64,000 bases of DNA. Source: Aplectana chamaeleonis. Its lineage: Eukaryota > Nematoda > Chromadorea > Rhabditida > Cosmocercidae. This document shows, in pieces, positions 5,196-55,230 of this stretch (position 1 is the stretch's first letter; every line of letters starts with the position of its first letter). The notes under the pieces were generated by a model. The model searched no databases and was not told where the DNA came from. It was given only the letters and a program-made list of their open reading frames with translations. Both the position numbers and the translations under genes were made by a program. The stretch covers positions 799,501 to 863,500 of the forward strand of contig JAPDOI010000116.1 of assembly GCA_029168955.1 (NCBI GenBank), written 5' to 3'.

Positions 5196-5804
5196 AGTTA
5201 TTGCTTGGTGTCCGTCCGCCCCCAATTATAGAGATTTCTATAAATGACTGTTCTACAATCTCTTATTTCGCATCTAAAATAATTTCTGAGCACTTTTAGA
5301 GACTACTGACTATTTTTAGAGCAAAATTTAAAAAAACGGATAAACAAGAATTTATGAAAATCTCGTTAATTGGGGTGGGGGCGTGCGGACACCTGTAATT
5401 ACTCAGAAAAATGAAAACAAGTTACTTGTAACAAAAAAGGCCGAAAATAAGTTACCTGTAACATATCTGAGCCGATGTAAGTTACTTGTGACTTATCTCA
5501 GGTCATTTAAATTACATGTAACATATCGCGGGGATGCTGCGTGCGCGATGCGCCTCCGACATGTTACATGTAACTTAAATGACTTGAGATGAGTCGCAAG
5601 TAACTTACATCAGCTTTGATATGTTACAAGTAACTTTTTTTTCGGTTTCTGAGAGGATACTGTGTGCAGTGCGCCTCCGACATGTTACATGTAACTTAAT
5701 TGGCACAATATAAGTCGCAAGTAACTTAAATCGACCAAGAAGATATTTTCAAGGTTCATGTACGACGCACTCGCGGGGTCAGGCTTACGACTGGCGTTGC
5801 TGTT

Positions 5805-5909
5805 GGTTCAATTTCCCAAGTTTGAGGTACTTGACCCCACACCAGCAGTGAAGAACCCGCACAACATTTTTTTTGCTTAGTGGGTGGTCTGGGACGCGCA
5901 CACTGCGTC
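5805..5909 (+). ncRNA. SL1-like RNA module (SL RNA gene or pseudogene), copy 1
   Basis: Positions 5805-5826 match the 22-nt nematode SL1 leader with two substitutions (T5C, A10T), keep the core CCCAAGTTTGAG, and are followed by GT. CAAGT/ACTTG pairs to form a hairpin around the junction. ATTTTTTTTG at 5866-5875 resembles an Sm site and sits at nt 62-71 of the module. A 5-bp hairpin, GACGC-N7-GCGTC, ends it at nt 105. SL1 RNA of C. elegans has the same order (leader, GU, Sm site, 3' stem-loop) in about 100 nt. Whether this copy is transcribed is unknown; it could be a decayed pseudogene amplified by the surrounding element. A longer alternative palindrome (GGTGGTC...GACCACC) overlaps its 3' end. 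Confidence 0.4.
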
Positions 5910-9464: not shown

Positions 9465-11234
9465 CCTAGAGGAGCCGAAGCGGCATTATCGCGGCAGTTT
9501 AGTGGTATTTTCGCGGCAACTTCTACCACAATCACGTCGTCCAAAAAGGTAAAGGAACGCGTAAAATGATTCCTCTTGTTTTTTGGTCGTATTGCGCACC
9601 GAAAAGAGCGTTTTTCAACATATTTTGAATCAGCATCGATTAGTCTTTTTTTATCTACACATGGCTTACTCCCAAACAAGGCATATAGGGACGTCACTGC
9701 CAATCGAGTGGGTGAGAAGTGGCACAGTATGAGATGCTAGAATATACGATTTTTTCAATTTAAGGATTGTAATGTTACAACTCTTTGTTCCTATTTTTGT
9801 TTTATTAAATTCTTCCTAGTCTCTGAATATTACTGATCCACAATTCACTCAGTCACTCATTCAATAAATTTTAGTTTTTATCCACAATAGTTTAATTTTT
9901 GGTTTTTTTTTCTTTTTTTTTGCAACTAGCCGACGATTTAGATTGGAGAAATCATTCACCACAATGTGACTATTATATAAAGGAACGGTGAAACGGGAAG
10001 TTTTGCGGCGAAAATTCACACTAATACCACAACAGCATCGGAACAGCTTATAAAATATTTCTGAAACTTTCTTATTTCTATTTCTGAAAAAAAAGCTTGT
10101 AAAAGCTGGAGATTTGAATAGTCTGAAGACAGGGGCGAAACAGTTCATATCAAACTGAAAAATACAAAATGGAAAAAAATAAATAAGTTTAACGAAAGTA
10201 AATAAAACAAAATGAAATATATTGAGCGAATATAGCGAAAAAAATGAAAAAAATTAAGTAATTAATTAATTAATTAATAAGATAATAAAATAAAATAAAA
10301 AATAAGTTATCATATGACAGTTCTAACTTTTTCACTTATAAAACGCGAAACTACTGTTTGAAATCAATAAAAACGAAAAATATCTGGCAACTCAGGTTGA
10401 AATACGGAAACGTCTTGAATCATCTTAAAAATCGACTGGACGCTAAACAATGAAGAGTTTTAAAAAATTAGAAATGTAGTGAAATATTCGAAAAAAAAGC
10501 ATAGGCCGAGTATTGATTAGTGCAGTGAAAGATGAGGGGTCGGATTTGACAAGCTTCTCCTTCAGTTTTGTCGAAACAGAATGAAGTGTGCACTGGAACC
10601 TTGAAAATTTTCTTAGAACGCTATAATGCAGTAATTAGCGTATGTCGAATTACGTACAGTCTATCCGAACGCGAATGTCAGCCGACGCGATCGGCGTGCG
10701 TATTTCTGAGAGTTTTGGCCGAGAAATAGCCGCGAAATATCCGCGAAATGCCTGCTTGCCGCGTAATAGCCGCGTTATAGCCACCAAATAATGCTCGTCG
10801 CGAAATAGCCGAGAAATAATACTCTTGTGTACGAAGCATTCCAGAGGCACGATTCAGATGTCAACACCGTCGTCGGTTCAAATACCCAAGTTTGAGGTAC
10901 TTGGACCTCGTTCAGCGACTGGAGGCCCGCTTAACCGCTGGCGGCTCCAGCGGGTGGCCCGGCGATGGTTGCGTCTAGGATACTTTGGGTTACCTTTCGC
11001 TATTTCTCGGATATTTCTCGGCTTCTTCTCGCCCGTTTCGTGAAAAGCCGAGAAATAGCCGAGAAATAACCCACCAGGAGCTTCTGTGGAGCCTGGTGGG
11101 CTATTTCTCGGGCAAAACTCTCAGAGAAGTTGCCGTCAAAGCACCGCAATGGTTCCGTTACAGAACCGCGCCGGCCACGCGAGGATGAGGAATCGCGGAG
11201 TCCAGACACAGCTTGAAGGAGTCGAAGCGGCACT
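9465..11234 (+). repeat. R1 long repeat, copy 1 (left of the hAT insertion)
   Basis: Order: AGCGGCACTATCGCGG block, CACATGGCTTACTCCCAAAC block, CTGTCTGAAGACAGGGGCGA block, AATAAAATAAAA tract, GTCGAATTACGTACAGTC block, GAGAAATAGCC block, and an SL1-like leader at 10875-10896. The same order recurs at 14.5-16.1 kb and, in part, at 16.1-17.6 kb. No coding capacity. Confidence 0.65.
10875..10896 (+). other. SL1-like 22-mer in R1 repeat copy 1
   Basis: Two substitutions from SL1 (T5C, T8A), followed by GTACTTGGACC. CCAAGT/ACTTGG forms a 6-bp hairpin across the GAG|GT junction. No Sm-like site or 3' hairpin follows at the expected distance, so this is a leader-only copy in a repeat unrelated to the ACATGTAAC family. 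Confidence 0.5.
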
Positions 11235-14483: not shown

Positions 14484-16140
14484 GCCGCTACGACGTTGCT
14501 GCGGAGCATTGACACAGCTAAGAGGAGCCGAAGCGGCACTATCACGGAGCCGCTACGGCGTTGCTGCAGCGAATAGAGTGCCATTAGGAAACGAAGCGGC
14601 GCTTTCTCGGAACTATCGCGGAAACTTCTACAGGAGTCATCTTGGCAAAAGCATACAGAAGAGCGCGGAAATTCGCTTTTCTTGTTTTTTGGTCATACCT
14701 CTCTTTGAAGAGAACGTTTCACAACATCTTTCGAATCAGCATCGAGTAGTCTTTTTTTATCTACACATGGCTTACTCCCAAACAAGGCACATAGGGCCGT
14801 CACTGCCAATCGAGTGGGTGAGGAGTGGCACAACATGAGATGCTAGATTAGACATTTTTTTCAATTTCAGGATTGTAATGTTACAACTATTTGCTCCTAT
14901 TTTTGTTTTATTAAATTCTTCGTAGTCTCTGAATATTATTGATCTACAATTCATTCAGTCACTCATTCAATAATTTTTGGTTTTTATTTACAATCGTTTC
15001 ATTTTTCTTTTTTTTTTTGTTTTTTTTTGCAACTAGACAACGTCGGGAAGGGTGAGATCATTCCCCACGATGTGACTGTTATATAAAGGAACTGTGAAAC
15101 GGGAAGTTTTGTGGCGAAAATTCACACTAATACCACAACAGCATCGGAACAGTTTATAAATTACTTCTGAAACTTGTAAAAAAAAGCTTATAAAAGCTAG
15201 GGATATGAATTGTCTGAAGACAGGGGCGAAACAGTTTATATCAAACCAAAAAATACAAAATGAAAAAAACAATTAAGTAAAACGAAAGTTAAATAAAACA
15301 AAATAAAATACATTAAGCGAATATATTTAAAAAAAATTGAAAAATAAATAAATAATTAGTTAATTAAAATAAATAAGATACTAATTATAAAAAATCTTTT
15401 TTATAACTTATAAAATGCGAAACTACTGTTTGAATTCAATAAAAATGAGAAATATCTGGCAACTCAGGTTGAAATGAGAAAACGTCTTGAATCATCTTAG
15501 AAATCGACTGGACGCTAAACAATGCAATATTTTTAAAAAAATTAGAAATGTAGTGAAATATTTGAAAAAAAGCATAGACCAAGTATTGATTAGGGCTTGA
15601 AACCGTGAAAATTCTCTTAGAACGCTATAATGCAGTTACTATCGTATGTCGAATTACGTACAGTCTATCCGAACGCGACGCGATCTGCGTGCGTATCTCT
15701 GAGAGTTTTGGCCGCGAAATAGCCGCCAAATTATGCTCGTCGCGAAATAGCCGAGAAATCGTGCTTTCCAGGTAGGTATACGGCGCATTCCAGAGGCACG
15801 ATTCAGATGCCATCACCTTCGTCGGTTCAGTTGCCCAAGTTTGAGGTACCTGGACCTCTGAAGGCCCCACCCAACCGCTGGCGGCCCCAGGCGAGGGTTG
15901 CGCCTTGGTTACTTTTGGTAACTTCCCGTTATCCCATCTGTTATATCTCGGTTATTTCTCGGCTACTTCTTGTCTGTTTCGTGAAAAGCCGAGAAATTTC
16001 CCACCAGGAGCTTCTGTGGAGCCTGGTGGGCTATTTCTCGGCCAAAACTCTCAGAGAAGTTGCCGCGAAAGCACCTCAATGGTTCCGTTACAGATCCGCG
16101 CCGGCCCGCGAGGATTACTAATCACGGAGTCCAGACACAG
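14484..16140 (+). repeat. R1 long repeat, copy 2
   Basis: Head-to-tail second copy of the block order seen at 9.5-11.2 kb, including CACATGGCTTACTCCCAAAC near 14764, the AAAATAAATAAATAA tract, and an SL1-like leader at 15824-15845. It provides the empty site for the MITE at 16895-17144. Confidence 0.65.
15824..15845 (+). other. SL1-like 22-mer in R1 repeat copy 2
   Basis: Three substitutions from SL1 (T5C, A7G, A10G), with CCCAAGTTTGAG intact, followed by GTACCTGGACC. No Sm-like site or terminal hairpin follows in the expected window. Confidence 0.45.
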
Positions 16141-17600
16141 CTTGAAGGAGCCGAAGCGGCACTATCGCGGAGCCGCTACGGTGTTGCCGCAGCGAATAGA
16201 GTGCCATTAGGAACCGAAGCGGAGCTTTCGCGGCACTATCGGGGCAACTTCTGGAAGAGTCATCTTGGCAAAAAACATGAAAAAGAACGCGGAAATTTGC
16301 TTTTTTTTGTTTTCTGGTAATAACTCTCTCCGAAGAAGACGTTTCACAACACCTTTCGAATCAGAATCGATTAGTCTTATTTTTATCTACACATGGCTTA
16401 CTCCCAAACAAGGCACATAGGGCCGTCACTGCCAATCGAGTGGGTGAGGAGTGGCACAACATGAGATGCTAGAATAGACGATTTTTTCAATTTCAGGATT
16501 GTAATGTTACAACTCTTTGTTCCTATTTTTGTTTTATTAAATTCTTCCTAGTCTCTGAATATTATTGATCTACAATTCATTCAGTCATTCATTCAATAAT
16601 TTTTGGTTTTTATTTACAATCGTTTCATTTTTCTTTTTTTTTTTGCAAGTAGGCAACGTCGGGAAGGGTGAGATCATTCCCCACAATGTGACTGTTATAT
16701 AATGGAACGGTGAAACGGGAAGTTTTGTGGTGAAAATTCACACTAATACCACAACAGCATCGGAACAGTTTATAAAATATTTCTGAAACTTGTAAAAAAA
16801 AAAGCTTATAAAAGCTAGGGATATGAATTGTCTGAAGACAGGGGCGAAACAGTTTATATCAAACCAAATAATACAAAATGAAAAAAAACAATTACAGGCC
16901 ATAAAACGGCCAATGTCTCACCGTCGACTGCGAGCCACGCGCTGCGCGACCGCACGCGCGTCGGAAGCAGACGGGTTTTGGCCGCCGCGCGACGAGTTTT
17001 GGCCGCCGCGCGACGAGTTCTGCTACCGCGCGACGGCCGAAACTCGTCGCGCGGCGGCCAAAACTCGTCTGCTTCCGACGCACGTGCGGTCGCGCAGCGC
17101 GTGGTACGCAGTCGACGGTGAGACATTGGCCGTTTTATGGCCTGTAAGTAAAACGAAAGTTAAATAAAACAAAATAAAATACATTAAGCGAATATATTTT
17201 TAAAAAATTGAAAAATAAATAAATAATTAGTTAATTAAAATAAATATGATGATAATTATAAAAAATCTTTTTTATAACTTATAAAATGCGAAACTACTGT
17301 TTGATATCAATAAAAACGAGAAATATCTGGCAACTCAGGTTGAAATGAGAAAACGTCTTGAATCATCTTAGAAATCGACTGGACGCTAAACAATGAAAAT
17401 TTTTTAAAAAAATTAGAAATGTAGTGAAATATTTGAAAAAAGCATAGGCCAAGTATTGATTAGTGCAGTGAAAGATGACGGGTTCGGATTTGACCCGCTT
17501 CTCCTTCAGTTTTATCAGAACAAAATCTAGCGCGCACTGGAACAGTGAAAATTTTTTTAGAAAGTTGTAATGCAGTAATTAGCGTATGTCGAATTACGTA
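16141..17600 (+). repeat. R1 long repeat, copy 3 (partial, interrupted)
   Basis: Third head-to-tail copy: AGCGGCACTATCGCGG block, CACATGGCTTACTCCCAAAC near 16394, and CTGTCTGAAGACAGGGGCGA near 16829. It is interrupted by a TA-flanked MITE and ends in the GTCGAATTACGTACAGTC block, where a different MITE begins. It lacks the SL1-like part. Confidence 0.65.
16895..17144. mobile_element. 250-bp palindromic MITE with TA target duplication
   Basis: CAGGCCATAAAACGGCCAAT and its exact complement bound the element, with TA on each side (16893-16894, 17145-17146). The arms extend through CGTCGACTGCG and copies of GGCCGCCGCGCGACGAG. R1 copy 2 carries the uninterrupted AACAATTAAGTAAAACG at about 15269. 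Tc1/mariner-type by its TA duplication. Non-coding. Confidence 0.85.
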
Positions 17601-19990: not shown

Positions 19991-19996
19991 GACCTA

Positions 19997-20589
19997 CACA
20001 GAAAAATCAAAACAAGTTACTTGTAATATAAATGTAACTTACTAGAATGTCATAAGTCACTTACGTTTATATTACATGTAACTTAAATTTATATTACATG
20101 TAACTTAAATTTATATTGCATGTAAGATACATTTATGTTACATGCAACTTACATTTATTTTTTCACTATGGGTGGTCAACATTTGACGCAGACGACACGC
20201 GACGCAGAGCGCGCGTCTCAGACCACCCACTAAGCAAAAAAAATGTCGTGCGGGTTCTTCACTGCTGGTGTGGGGACAAGTACCTCAAACTTGGGAAACT
20301 GAACCAACAGTTGTGCCATTCAAGTTACATGTAACATATAGGAGGCACACTGCACGCAAGAACCTCTCAGAAACCGAAAACAAGTTACTTGTAAGATATC
20401 TAAGCCGATGTAAGTTACTTGCGATTCATCTCAAGTCTTTTAAGTTACATGTAACATATCGGATTTAAAATATCAGTATTCCGCCGATATGTTACTCGTA
20501 ACTTAAATGACCTGAGATAAGTCGCAAGTAACTTATAACTTACATCGGCTCAGACATGTTACAAGTAACTTGTTTTCATTTTTCTGATA
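19997..20589 (-). mobile_element. ACATGTAAC foldback element with SL1-like module
   Basis: ACAGAAAAATCAAAACAAG at the left and CTTGTTTTCATTTTTCTG at the right are inverted termini. The arms are made of TTACATGTAACTTA palindromes. The middle contains the SL1-like module on the minus strand. It abuts a Harbinger-type MITE on the right. Confidence 0.65.
20201..20305 (-). ncRNA. SL1-like RNA module, copy 2
   Basis: The leader at 20284-20305 differs from SL1 by three bases (T5C, A7G, A10T) and keeps CCCAAGTTTGAG followed by GTACTTG. The Sm-like ATTTTTTTTG is at 20235-20244. The terminal GACGC-N7-GCGTC hairpin is at 20201-20217. Total length is 105 nt, identical to copy 1. It lies in the sense orientation inside a 22.5 kb intron of the host gene. 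Confidence 0.4.
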
Positions 20590-21309: not shown

Positions 21310-21850
21310 CCGCGTCAGTGCCGGGAAAGTACCGCGACCCTCGACATCGCTGCGATAGTACCGCAGCGGCTCCGCGTCAGAACCGCGCCGGCTTCGCGTT
21401 AGAACCGCGCCGGCTCCGCGAGGATGCAGCAGTGAACCCGCGTGGAGTACGATGCACTATCCTGTGTGGTGAAACCAAGTTGTCGCTGGTTCAAATACCC
21501 AAGTTTGAGGCACATTCCGTATTTCTTTCGGGCGCAAAAGCGACGGTAACCTCTGTAGCTATCAGACAGATGATGCAACGACCGCAGGTGAGTATTTTTG
21601 TTCTTGCCCCCTCCCCCTAGTTGTACTATCATTCTTATATAACTTCAGATCAGACACTCTCCCTGAGTCGCTGCGGCACTATCGCGGAGCCGAAGCGGCA
21701 CTTCCGCATCACCGCTACGGCTCCGCGGTAGTGCCGGCGCATCTCCGCGACAGTGCCGCTTCGGTGCCTATAGGCTCCGAAGCGGCACTACCGCGGAGCC
21801 GCAGCGGCGATTTCTCTCGGAGTAGGAGCGAAATCGTCGTGGCGTTTAGG
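21310..21850 (+). repeat. GCCGAAGCGGC-family repeats with an SL1-like 22-mer
   Basis: GCCGCGTCAGTGCCGGGAAA, GGCTCCGCG and GCCGAAGCGGCACT blocks related to the 7.8-9.4 kb array. Two inverted blocks (21660-21830) surround a GCTCCGCGGTAGTGCCG centre. The SL1-like 22-mer lies at 21488-21509. Confidence 0.55.
21488..21509 (+). other. SL1-like 22-mer without a GT donor
   Basis: Two substitutions from SL1 (T5C, T8A); CCCAAGTTTGAG intact. It is followed by GCACATTCC instead of GTACTTG, so the donor dinucleotide is GC. It is the only one of seven copies with that change. Confidence 0.45.
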
Positions 21851-21967
21851 AACCTAATCCTCAACAAATGCCAGTACCCAAATGACAGAACCGCTCCGTA
21901 ACTCGGCTTGAAGATATCTGTAGCAGCTACAAACTTGGGTTCAGAAACACCTATAGAGGTTTACCTA

Positions 21968-22198
21968 CTCAGGCGATTCTCAGCCCCGAGCCGCACAGAA
22001 CAGCAATCGGAGCCGCCTGACAGTTCGGCTCCTCCCAATCTCCGGGCCACTGCTGTTGCTATTCCGGCGAACTGGGGCAGCCCGGACAGCAACAGCGGTG
22101 GCCCGTAAAGCACCAGCAGTGGCCCGGACAGCAACCGACCCGCAGATTAGGAGAACGAGCCGAACTGTCAGGCGGCTCGGGGCCGATAATCGCCTGAG
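21968..22198. mobile_element. CTCAGGCGA MITE
   Basis: CTCAGGCGATTCTCAGCCC at the left is matched by GGCCGATAATCGCCTGAG at the right, with TA on both flanks. The arms contain GCCGCCTGACAGTTCGGCTC and the middle CTGTTGCTGTCCGG. Thirteen copies occur in the window. Non-coding. Confidence 0.75.
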
Positions 22199-22199
22199 T

Positions 22200-24070
22200 A
22201 ATTAGCTAAAAACGGCTGGGTCGCGCAACACTGCGTAACAATAACACATACTGGAGTTCAAAGAATTTTTCGCGCACAACTCAAAATTTCGTCCATTTTT
22301 CATGAAATTCTTCGTGGGTGCTAGAAGACCCCAATTTTCCCTAAGGGTTTGGAACCCCTGGGTGGGCTAAATTTTGACGTGAGTGCGAAATTTTTCTTTG
22401 ACCCCCTCCCCACTATGTGTAATCCGGCCGGAACCCGACAAAAACGATCTCAAATTTTTGTTTGAACCACGGATAATTTCCAGAAAAAAGTTTTGACTTC
22501 TATTTGAAACAAAATTTTCCCTAATTAGGTCAGTGAGGTGTGGAAGTGACCTTTGACCAGCCGAAAATCGAATAAAATCATCGATGGGGCCACCCAAGGC
22601 GCCCATCTTCTACCTGCGTATTTCTATGGATAGCCCCCTTTCTCATAAGTAATTTTATACGGAACTTTTTTCACTTCCTTTATTTGATCTTGTTGTCATG
22701 TATCAGGTGTAATACATTCATTTTCATGTCAAAAGTATATAAATTAGGCTACGAAGTATGTACTTTTGAAAACATTCCAACAGGAAATACAATTATGTGG
22801 TTATGTTCTTCCTGATACGATTATACTCCTAGTCTGATGACGTTGATAGTGAAGCGGAAAACAATTTGGGGAAAGAAGTACTGAAAATTTACATTAATTC
22901 AATACGAGAAATATTGCAAGCAGTGGGGTAATTTGAATTTTTAACAGCACAACTCGGCGAAAAATCTCAAAAAATTCGAAAAACTTAGGGAGTTTTCCAC
23001 GTCTGTCTCGCTTGTCATCTTATTTATCTAAGGATCGTGTGTTTATAGAAAATTTAATTTTACAGAAAATAATTAGTTTTACTTGGCCCATTTCATTGGT
23101 AGTCCAGTTACACAAAAATGTTAGTTTTCAAGGCTTGAAAGTTGCCGATTTTAAGTTTTTTCCCCGGAATTCTTTATGGTCCCTGAACCTTTCCAGCGGC
23201 CAACTTTTGAAATTGCACACCTCTCGAGCATCCCTCCATCCTCTGCTTTCCTAATTATCACGCCCTGCCGCTCAAGGATAATGCTCATGTGTAAACACAG
23301 CTTAGCGCGAAGAGCCGGAGATGATTCTTGATCCACTTAGCGCCTCTGAAAAATGATCTACTCTCCGAACGCCTCCTCCTCGCCCTCTTCAGCTTCAACG
23401 CATCTGCATTCGTGGACTTTGATTTCTGAAGTCTTAACCAGGCGGAGGGACATCCACGAGTGTTACACCCAGGGTTGAGAACTTATGGCAAGTTTTTATA
23501 AAAATGTACAAAGTACGAATGAAGATGACTTGGAGAAAGTGGCCATTCCGGTTGAATTTCAACTTCAAAGAATCAAATTTGGTCGAAAATTTAGAATTTG
23601 AACGTTTCCCTGAACAGAGTTATAAGCGAAAGGTTGCGGTGGGTAAATGACCTTACGCTATCGCTTATACCTCCACTTAGAGAAACGGTGCGCAGCCAGA
23701 AAGTTCAAATTAGATTTTTTTTGTCAAAATTTGATTCTAAAAAGTTTCATTTCTTTCGGAATGACCACCTTCTCCCTAGTTAGAAACTACTGCAAAACCG
23801 TCGATGCTATTAATTATAGAGAGTATGGGCGATCTTAAAAATAAGGTTGTTAAAAAAATGAACTTGTCTAACCTCTAAGCTGATGAGACTCGATTCCGAA
23901 ACTGAGTTTGGCTGTCAAGTAGGGTCTACGCTGTCTAACCCTTTAATCTCACCTTGATTCAGGTATAAAAAAAGTTTTCAGCTGCCCGTGAAAATATATT
24001 AAGAAGTTATGGTGAGTTTTTTCAGCATGGAAGGGTCCAAACAGTGAAAATGGTTCATATCTCCGGCCAG
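22200..24070. other. Intronic stretch with one foldback remnant
   Basis: Mainly unique AT-rich DNA. Around 23530-23785, GAGAAAGTGGCCATTCCGG and CGGAATGACCACCTTCTCC are inverted, with AGAATCAAATTT arms inside: a ~250-bp imperfect foldback of a family also seen at 61.2 and 62.7 kb. No exon recognised. Confidence 0.5.
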
Positions 24071-44285: not shown

Positions 44286-44287
44286 TA

Positions 44288-44821
44288 CTCAGAAAAATGA
44301 AAACAAGTTACTTGTAATATAAGTGTAACTTACTTGAATGTCTCAAGTAACTTACATTTATATAACATGTAACATACGTTTATATTACATGTAACTTAGA
44401 TTTATATTACATGTAACTTACACATATATTTTCACTATGGGTGGCCGTAACATGACGCAGATGACACGCGACGCAGAGAGCGCGTCCCAGACCACACACT
44501 ACGCAAAGAATGTTGTGCGGGGCCGTCCCTACTGGTGTGGGGTCAAGTACCTCAAACTTAGGTAATTGAACCAACAGCAACGCTAGTTGTTAGCCCGACC
44601 CCGAGAGTGCGTCGTACATCCCCTTGGAAATTTCTTCTCGGCCGATTTAAGTTACATGTAACATATCGGAGGCGCACCGCCCGCAGTATCCGGCCGATAT
44701 GTTACATGTAAGTTAAATGACCTGAGATGGGTCGCAAGTAACTTACATCGGCTCATATATGTTACAAGTAACTTGTTTTCGGCCTTTTATGTTACAACTA
44801 ACTTGTTTTCATTTTTCTGAG
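44288..44821 (-). mobile_element. ACATGTAAC foldback element, complete, TA-flanked
   Basis: CTCAGAAAAATGAAAACAAG at the left and its exact complement at the right, with TA on both sides, define a 534-bp element. The arms are TTACATGTAACTTA palindromes. The middle carries the SL1-like module on the minus strand. Best-preserved copy of the family in the window. Confidence 0.8.
44470..44572 (-). ncRNA. SL1-like RNA module, copy 3
   Basis: The leader at 44551-44572 has two differences from SL1 (T5C, C13T) and is followed by GTACTTGACC. The Sm-like segment is ATTCTTTG (44504-44511), weaker than in other copies. The GACGC-N7-GCGTC hairpin is at 44470-44486. Length 103 nt. Sense orientation within the 14.7 kb intron of the host gene. 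Confidence 0.4.
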
Positions 44822-45012
44822 TAGAGGCTACCCTAGACTCAAACTGGAGTTCCGAAAAACGGTCTATCAGATTTTCCGTTAGAGGTATACTCAGTTAAAA
44901 ACACTCAATTTTTTGGATTTCAGAAATTTGAGCTCTTACAGCCAAAACTTTGTCCACTGTGGTTATATAAGGCGCTGTACACGAATATACGGTCCATTCT
45001 CCGCTTTTCAGG

Positions 45013-48958: not shown

Positions 48959-49595
48959 AGAAAAATGAAAACAAGTTACTTGTAACATAAAAGGCCAAAA
49001 ACAAGTTACTTGTAACATATCTGAGCTGATGTAAGTTACTTGTGACTTATCTCAGGTCATTTAAGTTACATGTAAGATATCGGCGGGATGCCGCGCGCGG
49101 TGCGCCTCCGATATATTACATGTAACTTAAATGACCTGAGATAAGTCGCAAGTAACTTACATCAGCTTAGATATGTTACAAGTGAATTATTTTCAATTTT
49201 TGTGAGGATACTGCGTGCAAGGCGCCTCAGATATGTTACATGTAACTTAAATGGCACAATATAAGTCGCAAGTAACTTAAGTCGGCCAAGAAGATATTTC
49301 CAAGGTTGATGTACGACGCACTCGCGGGGTCAGGCTTACGACTGGCGTTGCTGTTGGTTCAATTACCCAAGTTTGAGGTACTTGATCCCATACTATCAGG
49401 GAAGGCCCTGCACAGCATTTCTTTTGGCGTAGTGCGTGGCCTGGGACGCGCCCTCTGCGTCGCGTGTCGTCTACGTCACATGATGGCCACCCATAATCAA
49501 AATTCAAATGTAAGTTACATGTAACATAAGTGTAACTTACATGTAATATAATTGTAAGTTACATGTAATATAAATGTAAGTTATTTGAGACATGT
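48959..49595 (+). mobile_element. ACATGTAAC foldback element with SL1-like module
   Basis: Starts CTCAGAAAAATGAAAACAAG; the interior has the same order of palindromes as the 5.4 kb copy, and its uninterrupted AACATAAGTGTAAC near 49529 is the empty site for the element nested there. The right end (GTAAGTTATTTGAGACA) is diverged. Confidence 0.7.
49356..49461 (+). ncRNA. SL1-like RNA module, copy 4 (closest to SL1)
   Basis: The leader at 49356-49377 differs from SL1 at one base only (T5C). GTACTTG follows, pairing with CAAGT across the junction. ATTTCTTTTGG at 49417-49427 is an Sm-like site at nt 62-72. GACGC-N7-GCGTC at 49445-49461 ends a 106-nt module. It lies antisense to the C2 gene, upstream of the first visible exon. 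Confidence 0.45.
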
Positions 49596-50275: not shown

Positions 50276-50282
50276 AAAACAC

Positions 50283-53200
50283 AATGGGCGGCAGCAGTTA
50301 GTTATAGTTTGCGGCACTGAGCGACAGTGAGCGTCGCTAGACGATAATTGCCTATGGTCGATAACCTATCTCAGAAACCTTGTTTGGAGTTGGGTAAAAA
50401 AATTGAGCGGGGAAAAGTGACGCACAGTTTACAACTATGAGCCATAGCTAGCGGTAGTGAAGCGACAATAGGCGAAAGTAGACGACAGTTGGCGACAATG
50501 AACGATAGTAAGCGAGTCTTGGGAGAAGAATCGGAGTGAAGACGCTCTATTGGTGGAAGACCTTTGTTGACCGATGTATGTAAAAAAAACGCCGTGGGCG
50601 GCATAGTTAGCGACAGTTGGCGACAATGAGCGACAGGTGTCAGCGCTGGGTTATTATATTAAGCTATATTATATTATCGATATTAAGCGAGTCTATGAAA
50701 AAAAGTGAGTTCGGAGGGTGCAAAACTTTGGTGACCTGAACTGAACGACCTTGAACGGTAGTTGGCAAAAGTAGGCGACAGTTTGCGACAATAGGCGACG
50801 GCAATCAGCTATGGTTAGCGGCACTGAGCGACAGTGAGCGTCGTATGACGATAATTGCCCATAGTGGATGACCTATTTGAGAAAACTGTATTTGAAGTCG
50901 GGGCGAAGAATTGGTGAAAGTGTGGGGGAAAATGACGCACAGTTGGCAGCTATGAGCGATAGCTAGCGGTAGTGAAGCGACATTGGGCGACAGTGGGCTA
51001 CAGTGGGCGACAGTTGGCGACAATAAGAAAATAAATGAATGGAGTTGCGCTTTTAGTGGATGACGTTCAATGATCGATGTGGATTCGAAGAAACCGAAAG
51101 CGCCATAGTTGGCGACAGTTGGCGACAGTGAGCGACGGCTGGAGCTGCAGAGCAATATTAAGAAACATTAAATTAAAGGGTTCATGAATGAAGATGATCG
51201 GATGACGGATGAAGGGGGAAAGGCTGTAACATGAACTAGACGACCCGGACAGGTAGTTGGCGAGAGTAGGCGACAATTGGCGAAAAAGTGCGTCAACTGG
51301 TGACATCAATCAGCTATAGTTAGCGCACTGAGGGACAGTGAGCGTCACTGGGCGATAATTGCTAATGGTGGATGACTTATTTGAGAGCCTATATTTGAGG
51401 TTAGGTGGAAGGAGTAGTGGACGTGCGCAGAAGAGTGATGCACAGTTGACAAAGATGAGCGATGGCTAGCGGTAGTGAGCGACAATAGGCGAAAGTAGAC
51501 GACAGTTGCCGTACCTATGAGCGATATCGAGTTTCGGGAAACGAATCGGGTGCACTATTGGTGGAAGACGTTCAATGGTCGATGTGCGCTTGAAAAAACT
51601 GCAAGCGGCGCATATGGCGACAGCTGGCGACAGTGAGCGATAGATGCGCGCACTGTCGTAAACTGCGCGACAGCTTGCGATACTGGGCGATATTAGGCGA
51701 ATAAATGTAAAAAAGTGAAATTAGAGGGCGAATGGAAGAAGATGATGGGAAGACGGATGTAAGAGGGAAGGGCTGGTGAAATCAACTGAACGACCTTGAA
51801 CGGTAGTTGGCGAAAGTAGGCCACAATTGGCGACAATGGGCGACGACAATCAGCTATAGTTGGCGGCACTGAGCGTCGTATGGCGATGATAGCCCATGGT
51901 GGATGACCTATTTGAGAAAACTATGTTTGAAGTCGGGTTGAAGAATTGGTGCAAATGTGGGGAAAAGTGACGCACAGTTAACAACTATGAGCGATAGCCT
52001 GCGGTAGTGAAGCGACAATAGGCAACAGTAGACGACATTTGGCGACAATAAACGATTTTAAAGTACTATTGGGAGAGGAATCGGATTGCACTATGGGTGA
52101 AAGACGTTCAATGATCGATGTAGGTTCAAAAAAAAGTCAAAAGCCATAGTTGGCGACAGTTGGCGACAAAGGGCGACAGCTGGCGCTACTGGGCGATATT
52201 AAACGAGTCCATGTAAAAAAATCAAGTAGAGGATGGAGTGAAGAAGACAATGGAATGACGGTTGTGGGGGAGGGGAACGCTTTGTCGTAAACTAGACCAC
52301 CCGGCAAGATAGTTGGCGAAAGTAGGCGACAATTGGCGGCAATAGGCGACAGCGATCAGCTACGGTTAGCGTCACTAAGCGATAGTGAGCGTCGTTTGGC
52401 GATATTTGCCTATGGTGTACAGCTTATATGAGAGACTATACATATTTGAGGTTTGGTGAAAGAACTTGTGAACGTGCGGGAAAAAGTGACGCACAGCTAA
52501 CAACTATGAGCGATAGCTAGCGGTAGTGAAGCGACAACAGGCGACAGTGGGCTACAGTAGGCGACAGCTTGACAGCAATAAGAAAAGAAAAGAATCTGGC
52601 CGTGCTAATAGATGGAGACATTCAGTGAAAGATATAGGTCTGAGAAAAATCGCGAGCGGCATACATAGTTGGCGACGGTTGACGACAGTGGGCGACAGAT
52701 GGAGCCACAGGGCGATATTAAACGAGTTCAAACGTCACATTAGAGGGTGAATGGGAGATGATAATTGGATGACGGGTGTAGGGAGGAAACGCTGTGACAT
52801 AAACTAGACGATCCCAACAGGTAGTTTGCGGAAGCGGGCGACAATTGGCGACGACAGGAGACAGCAATTGACTATAGTTAGCGGCACTGAGCGACGATGA
52901 GCGTCATTAGACGAGAATCGCCTATGATGGATGACCTATTTGAGAACCTACATTTGAGGTTGGGTTGAAGGATTGGTGGATGTGCGGGTAATAGTGACCC
53001 ACAGTTAACAAATATGAGCGATGGCTAGTGGTACTGAGCGACAATAGGCGACAGTAGGCGACAGTTGGCGACGATAAGCGAGATCTAAACGAGTTTCGTG
53101 AAAAGGATCGGGTTGCACTACACGATTGGTGGAAGACGTTCAGTGATCGACGTTAGCTCGAAAGAACAGCGAGCGTCATAGTTCGCGACAGCTGGCAGCA

Positions 53201-55230
53201 GTGAGCGACGGCTGGAGCTACAGAGCGATATTAAGAAAAGTCGTGTGTATTAGAGGGTGGATGAATGAAGATGATGGGTCTAGGGGAAACGCTGTGACAT
53301 AAACTGGACAACTCGGAACGGCAGTTGGCGAAAGTTCGCGACAACTGGCGACAGCAATCAGCTATAGTTAGCGGCACTGAGCGACGGTGAGCGTCATTAG
53401 ATTAGAATCGCCTATGATGGATGACCTATTTGAGAACCTATATTTGAGGTAGGGTTGAAGGATTGGTGGATGTGTGGGTAGTAGTGACCCACAGTTAACA
53501 AATATGAGCGATGGCTAGCGGTAGTGAAGCGACAACAGGCGACAGTGGGCTACAGTAGGCGACAGTTTGACAGCAATAAGAAAAGAAAAGAATCTGGTCG
53601 CGCTAATAGATGGAGACATTCAGTGAAAGATATAGGTCCGAGAAAAATCGCGTACTGCATAGCTGACATAGTTGGCGACGGTTGACGACAGTGAGCGACA
53701 GATGGAGCCACAGGGTGATATTGGGCAAGTTCATGTAAAAAAGTCACATTAGAGGGTGAATGGGAGATGATAATTGGATGACGGATGTAGGGAGGAAACG
53801 CTGTGACATAAACTAGACGATCCCAACAGGTAGTTTGCGGAAGCGGGCGACAATTGGCGACGACAGGAGACAGCAATTGACTATAGTTAGCGACACTCAG
53901 CGACAGTTAGCATCGTTTGGTGGACGACTTATCTCAGAAACTATATTTGAGGTTGGGTGGAAGGATTGATGAACGTGTGGGCAATAATGGCACACATTTG
54001 AGGTCCAGTGGAAGAACTGGTGAACGACAAATATTAGCGATAGCTCGCGGCAGTGAGCGACAATAGGCGACAGTAGACGACAGTTGGCGACAATAAGCGA
54101 GATCTAAACGAGTTCGTGAAAAAGAATCGAGATGCGCTATAGGTGGGAGGCGTTCATTTATCGATGTATGTTCGAAAAATTCGCGAGTGGCATAGTTGGC
54201 GACAGTTGGCGACAGTGAGCGACGTCTGGTGCCGCAGAGCGATATTAAGAAAAGTCAAATTAAAGGGTGGATGGAGGATGATAACGGGATGACGGATGGG
54301 GGGGGAACGCTTTGACATAAACTAAACGATCCGGACAGGTAGTTGACGAGAGTAGACGACAATTGGCGAAAAGAGGCGACAACTGGCGACAGCAATCATC
54401 TATAGTTAGCGGCACTGAGCGCCGTTGAGCGTCATTAGACGAGAATCGCCGATGATGGATGACCTATTTGAGAACCTATATTTGAGGTAGGGTTGAAGGA
54501 TTGGTGGATGCGTGGGTAATAGTGACCCACAGTTAACAAATATGAGCGATGGCTAGTGGTAGTGAGCGACAATAGGCGACAGTAGACGACAGTTGGCGAT
54601 AATAAGCGATATTAAATGAGTCCTAGGAAGAGAATCGAGTTGAACTATTGGTGGAATAGGTTCAATGACCGATGTACGTTCGAAAGAAAAAAACGCCATG
54701 GGCGGCATAGTTGGCGACAGCTGGCGACAGTTAGCGACAGGCGTCAGCACTGCGCGACAGCTGGCGCTACTGGGCGATGTTGAGTGAGTTCATATAAAAA
54801 ACAGTAAACATAGAAGGTGGAAAACGCTAGAGACAGAAAGTGGAGGACCCGGAACATTAGTTGGGGAAAGTAGGCGACAATAGGCGACAATGAGCGATAT
54901 TTAGCAACTTACTGAAAAAGCTTTAAAAAAACAGATTTGTTAAGAAGCGATGAATGATCAAAGGACCTGCGGGGAAAGCAGCGAGCGACACGCAGTTTGC
55001 GGCTCCGATCGACACTGGACGGCGGTAGGCGACTATAATCAGCGATCCTGAGCGATAGTGAGCGACACTTGGTGATGGTGAGCGTGTGAACAAATTTTTG
55101 ATTTCGCTGCAGGTGGAAGAGAACAAATTGTGGAAGGAAATGCCACCACAACCAGCAAATGGCACATAGTTGACGACAGTAGGCGACAGCAGGCTACAGT
55201 TGGCGACAGCGAGCGACAATAAGTAGCAAG
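50283..55230 (+). repeat. GGCGACA satellite, left arm of a giant inverted repeat
   Basis: Dense short units such as TTGGCGACAGTGAGCGACA within higher-order units of about 490-532 bp. The marker GTGACGCACAGTTAACA or its GTGACCCACAG variant starts at about 50419, 50934, 51437, 51969, 52488, 52996, 53486 and 54524 (the last gap is two units). Between markers are TTTGAGGTTGGGTGGAAGGA and GACGTTCAATGATCGATGT segments. Confidence 0.85.

Follow-up and report, generated by a model that had tools for sequence, protein, structure and literature searches.

SL RNA gene modules with a host-type promoter, probably carried by short non-autonomous DNA transposons in the nematode Aplectana chamaeleonis

SL1-like modules in the window

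The window, the whole stretch of 64 kb analysed here, contains on its minus strand an element of 538 bp (A3, 44286..44823) that has inverted repeats TACTCAGAAAAATGAAAACAAG at both ends and TA on both sides of CTCAG...CTGAG. It encloses a module, on the same strand, with a promoter element (PSE) GTACGACGCACT at 44606..44617, that is at -45 from the leader; a leader GGTTCAATTACCTAAGTTTGAG at 44551..44572, two changes from SL1 and with a GT donor next to it; a T-rich site ATTCTTTG at 44504..44511, which falls outside the strict Sm rule; and a 3′ hairpin GACGC-N7-GCGTC at 44470..44486. A preliminary description of this DNA had reported four such modules, each with a 22-mer that departs from SL1 at one to three positions, then GT, a T-rich stretch and the GACGC-N7-GCGTC hairpin, all within 103-106 nt, and we recover all four where it had placed them.

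A search of the window for SL1-like 22-mers with up to three mismatches yielded seven copies, and none in 100 shuffles; those at 10875+, 15824+ and 21488+ are new. The leaders differ from SL1 by two or three changes, except for one copy with a single change, and the splice donor GT directly follows the leader in 6/7. By flanks and body the copies sort into families A, B and C, to which promoter element and leader are common and the body is not.

Family A. The ACATGTAAC elements have their leaders at 5805, 20305, 44572 and 49356. Only A3 has intact ends on both sides. The A1 module (5805..5909, plus strand) has an exact PSE at 5760-5771 and a left inverted repeat from 5400, and its right end is lost. 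The A2 module (20201..20305, minus strand) is without a PSE, in an element of about 19995-20589 that has both ends in degenerate form. The A4 module (49356..49461, plus strand) has an exact C5 leader (C at position 5), an exact PSE at 49311-49322 and a left inverted repeat from 48954, again with the right end lost.

Family B. The GCCGAGAAATA arrays are represented by B1 (10703..11127, leader 10875-10896, inverted repeats TCTGAGAGTTTTGG) and B2 (15696..16057, leader 15824-15845), both on the plus strand. They share a single duplicated block and are therefore counted as one insertion. Segmental duplications that are 83-92% alike flank the B elements (9511-10523, 14616-15596 and 16226-16894).

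Family C. The single copy in the window, C1 (21293..21824, plus strand, leader 21488-21509), has GC rather than GT after the leader, and its inverted repeats are imperfect (TACTCTGAG / TACTCCGAG). C-type repeats at 7.8-9.3 kb were considered as eroded SL carriers and did not rise above shuffles.

Other repeats were seen in the window. A 235-bp inverted-repeat element with ends TACTCAGGCGATT and without an SL module lies at 21966-22200; it shares the CTCAG ends, and the window has about ten relatives of greater length. The stretch 50281-54897 contains divergent repeats, some 500 bp long and 67-72% alike. The Rfam SL1 model had no match in the window at its gathering threshold and none at E values up to 5. 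For coding genes, a Pfam scan of 10 of the 60 listed open frames gave two matches (E 0.015 and 0.076), both below the family cut-off.

The upstream promoter element

A GTACGANGCAYT-like element lies 41-46 bp upstream of the leader in 6/7 window copies; the preliminary description had proposed to look for an element of SL/snRNA type some 50-60 bp upstream. The 12-mer GTACGACGCACT, which was derived from family A only, where it stands at -45, has counterparts in B1 at -46 with two mismatches (GTACGAAGCATT, 10829-10840), in B2 at -46 with three (ATACGGCGCATT, 15778-15789) and in C1 at -41 with one (GTACGATGCACT, 21447-21458), all on the plus strand. The best match for A2 has seven mismatches, i.e. 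the element is absent there. As background, the same range was scored at places other than the seven leaders: of 126,440 positions, 44 had two mismatches or fewer and none had one.

Host genes were read for the same element. From at least 36 U2 matches (46 of 24,810 candidates being scored) 15 loci were read, and in eight of these the best match to GTACGANGCAYT falls exactly at -45, with two or three mismatches; the other seven, of another U2 type, have six mismatches at best, and ATACGG near -46 by eye. An Rfam SL1 search of the genome, in which 50 of 256,011 candidates were scored, gave at least three host SL1 loci; their scores of 50, 48 and 45.6 bits fall short of the cut-off of 75. All three (L159-L161) have a canonical leader, GT, AAATTTTG and a strong 3′ hairpin, and are followed at a distance of about 390 bp by a 5S rRNA gene. 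The PSE precedes each of these three 5S-linked genes, two having ATACGACGCACT near -46 (counted by hand) and the third ATATGACGCGCT. Since the same element stands before host 5S-linked SL1 genes and U2 genes, the modules very likely have upstream of them the SL/snRNA promoter of the host. The accessible text of PMC2527325 describes a PSE of such type in C. elegans SL and snRNA genes, and that of PMC6436959 a SNAPc motif of nematodes.

In two of the host loci an additional leader-like sequence GGTTTAATTACCCAATGTTGAG (at about 2305 in L160 and about 2307 in L161) follows a TACGACGCA element; it lies past the 5S gene, 0.8 kb downstream from the host SL1 gene.

Copies across the genome

The assembly searched has 1,036,593,504 bases in 2,087 contigs (1.04 Gb). 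Exact matches to canonical SL1 numbered 1,024 and exact matches to the C5 leader 1,837, while the reversed-pattern control gave 0 for each. Allowing up to three mismatches from the C5 form raised the count to 15,952 (control 4), a figure that includes every kind of canonical copy. The combined pattern of promoter and leader at fixed spacing (TACGNNGCAYT, 30-36 bases, GGTTYAATTACCCAAG) occurs 2,288 times (control 0), and these matches take in host genes and families beyond A-C. The genome-wide count that had been suggested thus runs to thousands of copies. With these controls, and with seven copies in the window against none in 100 shuffles, a chance resemblance to SL1 is refuted, and we give it practically no weight. 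The leader patterns had no match in the viral_contigs and genome_contigs collections.

We read 88 canonical loci as well as 60 C5 copies from 55 loci, in both cases out of the first 100 matches listed in contig order, so that neither sample is random. Every one of the 60 C5 copies is a module (37 of family A, 16 of B, 5 of C, and two with a PSE and an unassigned body), and 55/60 have a PSE with three mismatches or fewer. The canonical loci divide into 24 modules and 64 non-modules; the modules are mostly B with AATTTTG (18 B, three A, two C, and L067, which by eye is B-like without a PSE).

Tandem copies and relatives outside the three families were also encountered. At L136 (contig C1:5167835-5171080) five family A modules stand in tandem, 369-373 bp apart except for a single interval of 710. 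At L162 (contig C2:4549600-4551700) a different type of SL RNA, with leader GGTTTAATTACCCAAGTTTGCG, forms a tandem array with a 788-bp unit. A single relative at L164 has perfect 30-bp inverted arms; the same 30-mer is also found inside the L162 unit, so the arms are not clean transposon ends. A further module family, seen at L163, at L165 and among the matches of the promoter-leader search, has a promoter TACGATGCACTCCTGAGACGG like that of host L159, a leader ending in TTTGCG and inverted repeats of 36-39 bp; the ends of L165 read by eye as CA|CTCAG...CTGAG|CA.

Transposon ends

Inverted repeats that end in CTC(TG)AG flank the modules. With up to 5 (A), 4 (B) or 5 (C) edits allowed, and with no chance control for the ends alone, both repeats were found in 31/44 copies of family A, 32/36 of B and 6/8 of C, window copies included, that is in 69/88 modules. 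Among copies with both ends at most one change from the core, a filter that no C copy passed, an exact 2-bp target duplication was present in 12/16 of family A, against 2.0 expected between copies (p 1.6e-8), and in 19/24 of family B, against 5.4 expected (p 6e-9). A 3-bp duplication occurred in none of these 16 A and 24 B copies. B1 and B2 lack the 2-bp duplication (AT/AA) and are both among the family B misses.

Terminal inverted repeats (TIR) and a fixed 2-bp duplication are features that the modules share with non-autonomous TIR DNA transposons of MITE-like kind. The label 'foldback' used in the preliminary description understates the case, as two-ended copies are mostly TIR elements of 0.4-0.8 kb. 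Tc1/mariner elements duplicate only TA, and an assignment to that group was rejected: TA is common among the duplications here, but AA, TT, CA, TC, TG, AT, CT and AG also occur. Mutator elements, with target duplications longer than 2 bp, differ from the module elements in this respect. Otherwise Tm1, a Mutator/foldback family of root-knot nematodes, is likewise made up of repeat-rich DNA elements of foldback type, a likeness by description only, from the part of PMC3169594 that is accessible.

It could be argued that no transposition took place, and that dispersed SL RNA genes had repeats grown or inserted around them and were copied by segmental duplication. The common block of B1 and B2 fits such a history, as do the tandem copies at L136 and L162. 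The exact 2-bp duplications at the ends of A and B copies whose flanks differ, and the inverted repeats at both ends of most modules, count against it, and we consider it quite improbable.

Another origin would be retroposition, with SL RNAs copied in the manner of SINEs and landing in transposons. SINEs derive from tRNA, 5S rRNA or snRNA and move by reverse transcription, and a retroposed copy of a small RNA starts at the 5′ end of the RNA, without the upstream promoter. The modules resemble SINEs in that a small RNA gene has been amplified by mobility, and SL1-headed retroposed transcripts do exist in this genome (see below); however, the promoter of the modules lies outside the RNA, and the PSE and the flanks up to the TIR travel with the module. 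Because an RNA copy would not carry a promoter from upstream of +1, and with duplications of 2 bp at TIR ends, a retroposed origin is disfavoured, and we rate it as even less probable than a history without transposition.

RNA features

The preliminary description had seen an Sm-like site in its four modules. A T-rich stretch is indeed present in all four, whereas the exact run ATTTTTTTTG occurs in only two (5805 and 20305), the others having ATTCTTTG and ATTTCTTTTGG. The strict rule AT{4,6}G at 20-60 nt after the donor, taken from the accessible part of PMC7986045, is satisfied by 0/7 window copies. B2 has ACTTTTG at 65, and C1 has ATTTTTG at 84, outside the 20-60 nt range. Elsewhere in the genome, Sm-like sites appear as ATTTTG or ATTTTTTG in some A copies and as AATTTTG in B.

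Aligned, the four A copies form three helices: the first joins the leader to the bases that follow the donor, the second is a middle stem and the third is the 3′ hairpin. The T-rich site sits in the loop of the middle stem rather than between stems. B1 and B2 fold into the first stem of the A copies. Folding energies of the seven window copies are ordinary (z 0.11, 0.77, -0.85, -1.04, -1.60, -1.15 and -0.17). The pair 7-27 is A-U, G-U or G-C among the window copies, a pattern equalled by 202/500 shuffles, and there is one double change in their stems. The 3′ stem had been described as kept. This holds for the four named modules, whereas across 39 family A copies from the genome 91.3% of its cells are paired. 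For the whole structure of those 39 copies, compensatory change amounted to one double change in 857 cells, reached by 452/500 shuffles. The stem-preserving substitutions that had been proposed as a check were therefore in no excess over shuffles, either in the window or in the 39 A copies.

Use of the leader

Retroposed transcripts record which leaders were joined to RNAs. Among the 88 canonical loci, 15 fall into six groups (L018/L053, L027/L063/L069, L028/L043/L047/L054, L038/L088, L044/L076 and L056/L057) in which sequence is common only downstream of the leader and the upstream flanks differ; some have extra sequence between the leader and the common part. None of the 60 C5 leaders heads a retroposed transcript or LTR, against at least 15/88 for canonical SL1. 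The plain comparison (Fisher p 4e-4) depends on module abundance. We therefore corrected it by hand arithmetic: equal use would apply the rate of 15/88 of 1,024 to C5, giving ~175 among the 1,837 C5 leaders or ~5.7 expected per 60, and the chance of finding none is near 0.003. The C5 leader is thus probably used for trans-splicing rarely or never.

Exact canonical SL1 was also seen inside long direct repeats of LTR type (352-706 bp, 93-100% alike) in seven of eight pairs tested (L049/L050, L022/L023, L025/L026, L020/L021, L083/L084, L074/L075 and L033/L034). The repeat ends at TGGTGCATCG in six pairs, which is primer-site-like and which we take to be the complement of a tRNA 3′ end, and at TGCATCGGC in L033/L034. 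SL1 precedes the end of the repeat by 84-169 bp (by 376 in L033/L034), and unrelated LTR families seem to have it in common.

Divergence from consensus is 7-9% for the PSE, 5-17% for the bodies and 11-16% for the flanks; leaders were picked as exact and carry no information on their own conservation. Strong conservation of the PSE or Sm site among copies was not found, both being only mildly slower than the flanks. Together with the stem pattern, this is the pattern of cargo decaying after insertion. The suggestion that the variant leader acts as an SL or SL mimic thus fares poorly, given 0/60 C5 leaders at the head of a retroposed transcript or LTR, no compensatory excess, and a promoter and Sm site that change only mildly more slowly than flanks.

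The modules might nevertheless contribute to the SL RNA supply as a functional, mobile component, with some of them transcribed, capped, Sm-bound and donating leaders. The promoter element at host spacing in 2,288 places speaks for this, as do the canonical-leader modules (24/88 canonical loci, mostly B with AATTTTG), the ATTTTG or ATTTTTTG sites in some A copies, the permitted changes at pair 7-27, and the use of SL1 variants in other nematodes, e.g. Strongyloides ratti (accessible part of PMC1657053). Set against the record of retroposed transcripts and LTRs, stem covariation not above shuffles and near-neutral divergence, this reading is unlikely, if far from negligible. Source copies or canonical-leader B copies may be active.

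Capture of SL RNA genes

Promoters and bodies were compared with each other and with host SL1 genes against shuffles. Relative to one host SL1 promoter, 0 (B), 2 (A) and 4 (C) of 1000 shuffles were as good; relative to a second, 0 (B), 7 (A) and 250 (C). Between families, 13 (A-B), 154 (A-C) and 532 (B-C) of 1000 shuffles matched the promoter similarity. The bodies are unrelated by score, with 215 (A-B), 498 (A-C) and 388 (B-C) of 500 shuffles as good, and against the host SL1 body the figures are 23 (A), 158 (B) and 66 (C) of 500. At L159 a B-type body lies 203 bp after the 5S gene (score 74, best of 500 shuffles 48), with a divergent leader and no B ends within 3.1 kb. This suggests that the families stem from the capture of different SL RNA genes, with a 5S-linked gene as the source of B; the L159 body may also be an old, eroded B insertion. 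As the C promoter is no more similar to the second host promoter, or to the A and B promoters, than shuffles are, separate captures are likely rather than demonstrated. Overall, short non-autonomous DNA transposons very probably took up SL RNA genes promoter and all, and probably did so more than once.

The modules share with 5S-linked nematode SL1 RNA genes (Rfam RF00198; L159-L161 here) a 22-nt leader, GT and a PSE of the same type at a similar distance, and differ from them in the body, in having mostly C at position 5 and in lying between transposon ends. Our preferred reading, to which we assign a probability of roughly 0.86, is that they are SL RNA genes with an snRNA-type promoter, carried as cargo by non-autonomous TIR DNA transposons that have CTC(TG)AG ends, make 2-bp duplications and were spread by a transposase acting in trans. 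The idea that an SL RNA gene was captured by a non-autonomous element, and spread with it, had been put forward from the window alone, and it gains from the host-type promoter at fixed distance, the inverted repeats, the 2-bp duplications and the thousands of copies. Against our reading count several features of the window copies: among the A elements A3 alone has two intact ends, B1 and B2 lack the 2-bp duplication, and all seven depart from the strict Sm rule and from Rfam SL1. In the proposed course of events, a short non-autonomous TIR element would have taken up an SL RNA gene with its snRNA-type promoter, on separate occasions and from different genes, family B perhaps from one beside 5S rRNA. 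A putative trans-acting transposase supplied from elsewhere would then have multiplied the elements. Source copies would be transcribed, most copies would decay after insertion, and the C5 leader would probably enter trans-splicing rarely or never.

Our literature search, at title and abstract level and mostly outside subscription papers, found nothing on SL RNA genes as cargo of DNA transposons, and no match for the exact variant leaders. SL sequence is likewise spread by mobile elements in flatworms, where the accessible part of PMC12582326 sets aside 597 leader loci close to mobile elements, for the most part LTR and LINE. Those loci have partial leaders only and are explained there by trans-spliced retrotransposon RNAs, whereas the modules have leader, promoter and body in DNA transposons.

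Implications

The common view of SL RNA genes is that they are clustered, in many cases next to 5S rRNA. If they can be carried by transposons together with the promoter, thousands of potential sources of leaders, or decoys, are added to a genome. This bears on the origin and spread of SL variants, and is a warning that most of what a leader search finds in such a genome is cargo. SL1-headed retroposed transcripts provide a fossil record by which leader use is testable without RNA. More speculatively, and at a probability that we hold to be low, the SL RNA gene set may itself be mobile: repeatedly captured with its promoter by TIR transposons making 2-bp duplications, it would be present in thousands of copies, of which some young ones with a canonical leader (e.g. 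in family B) would be transcribed and would supply or replace working genes.
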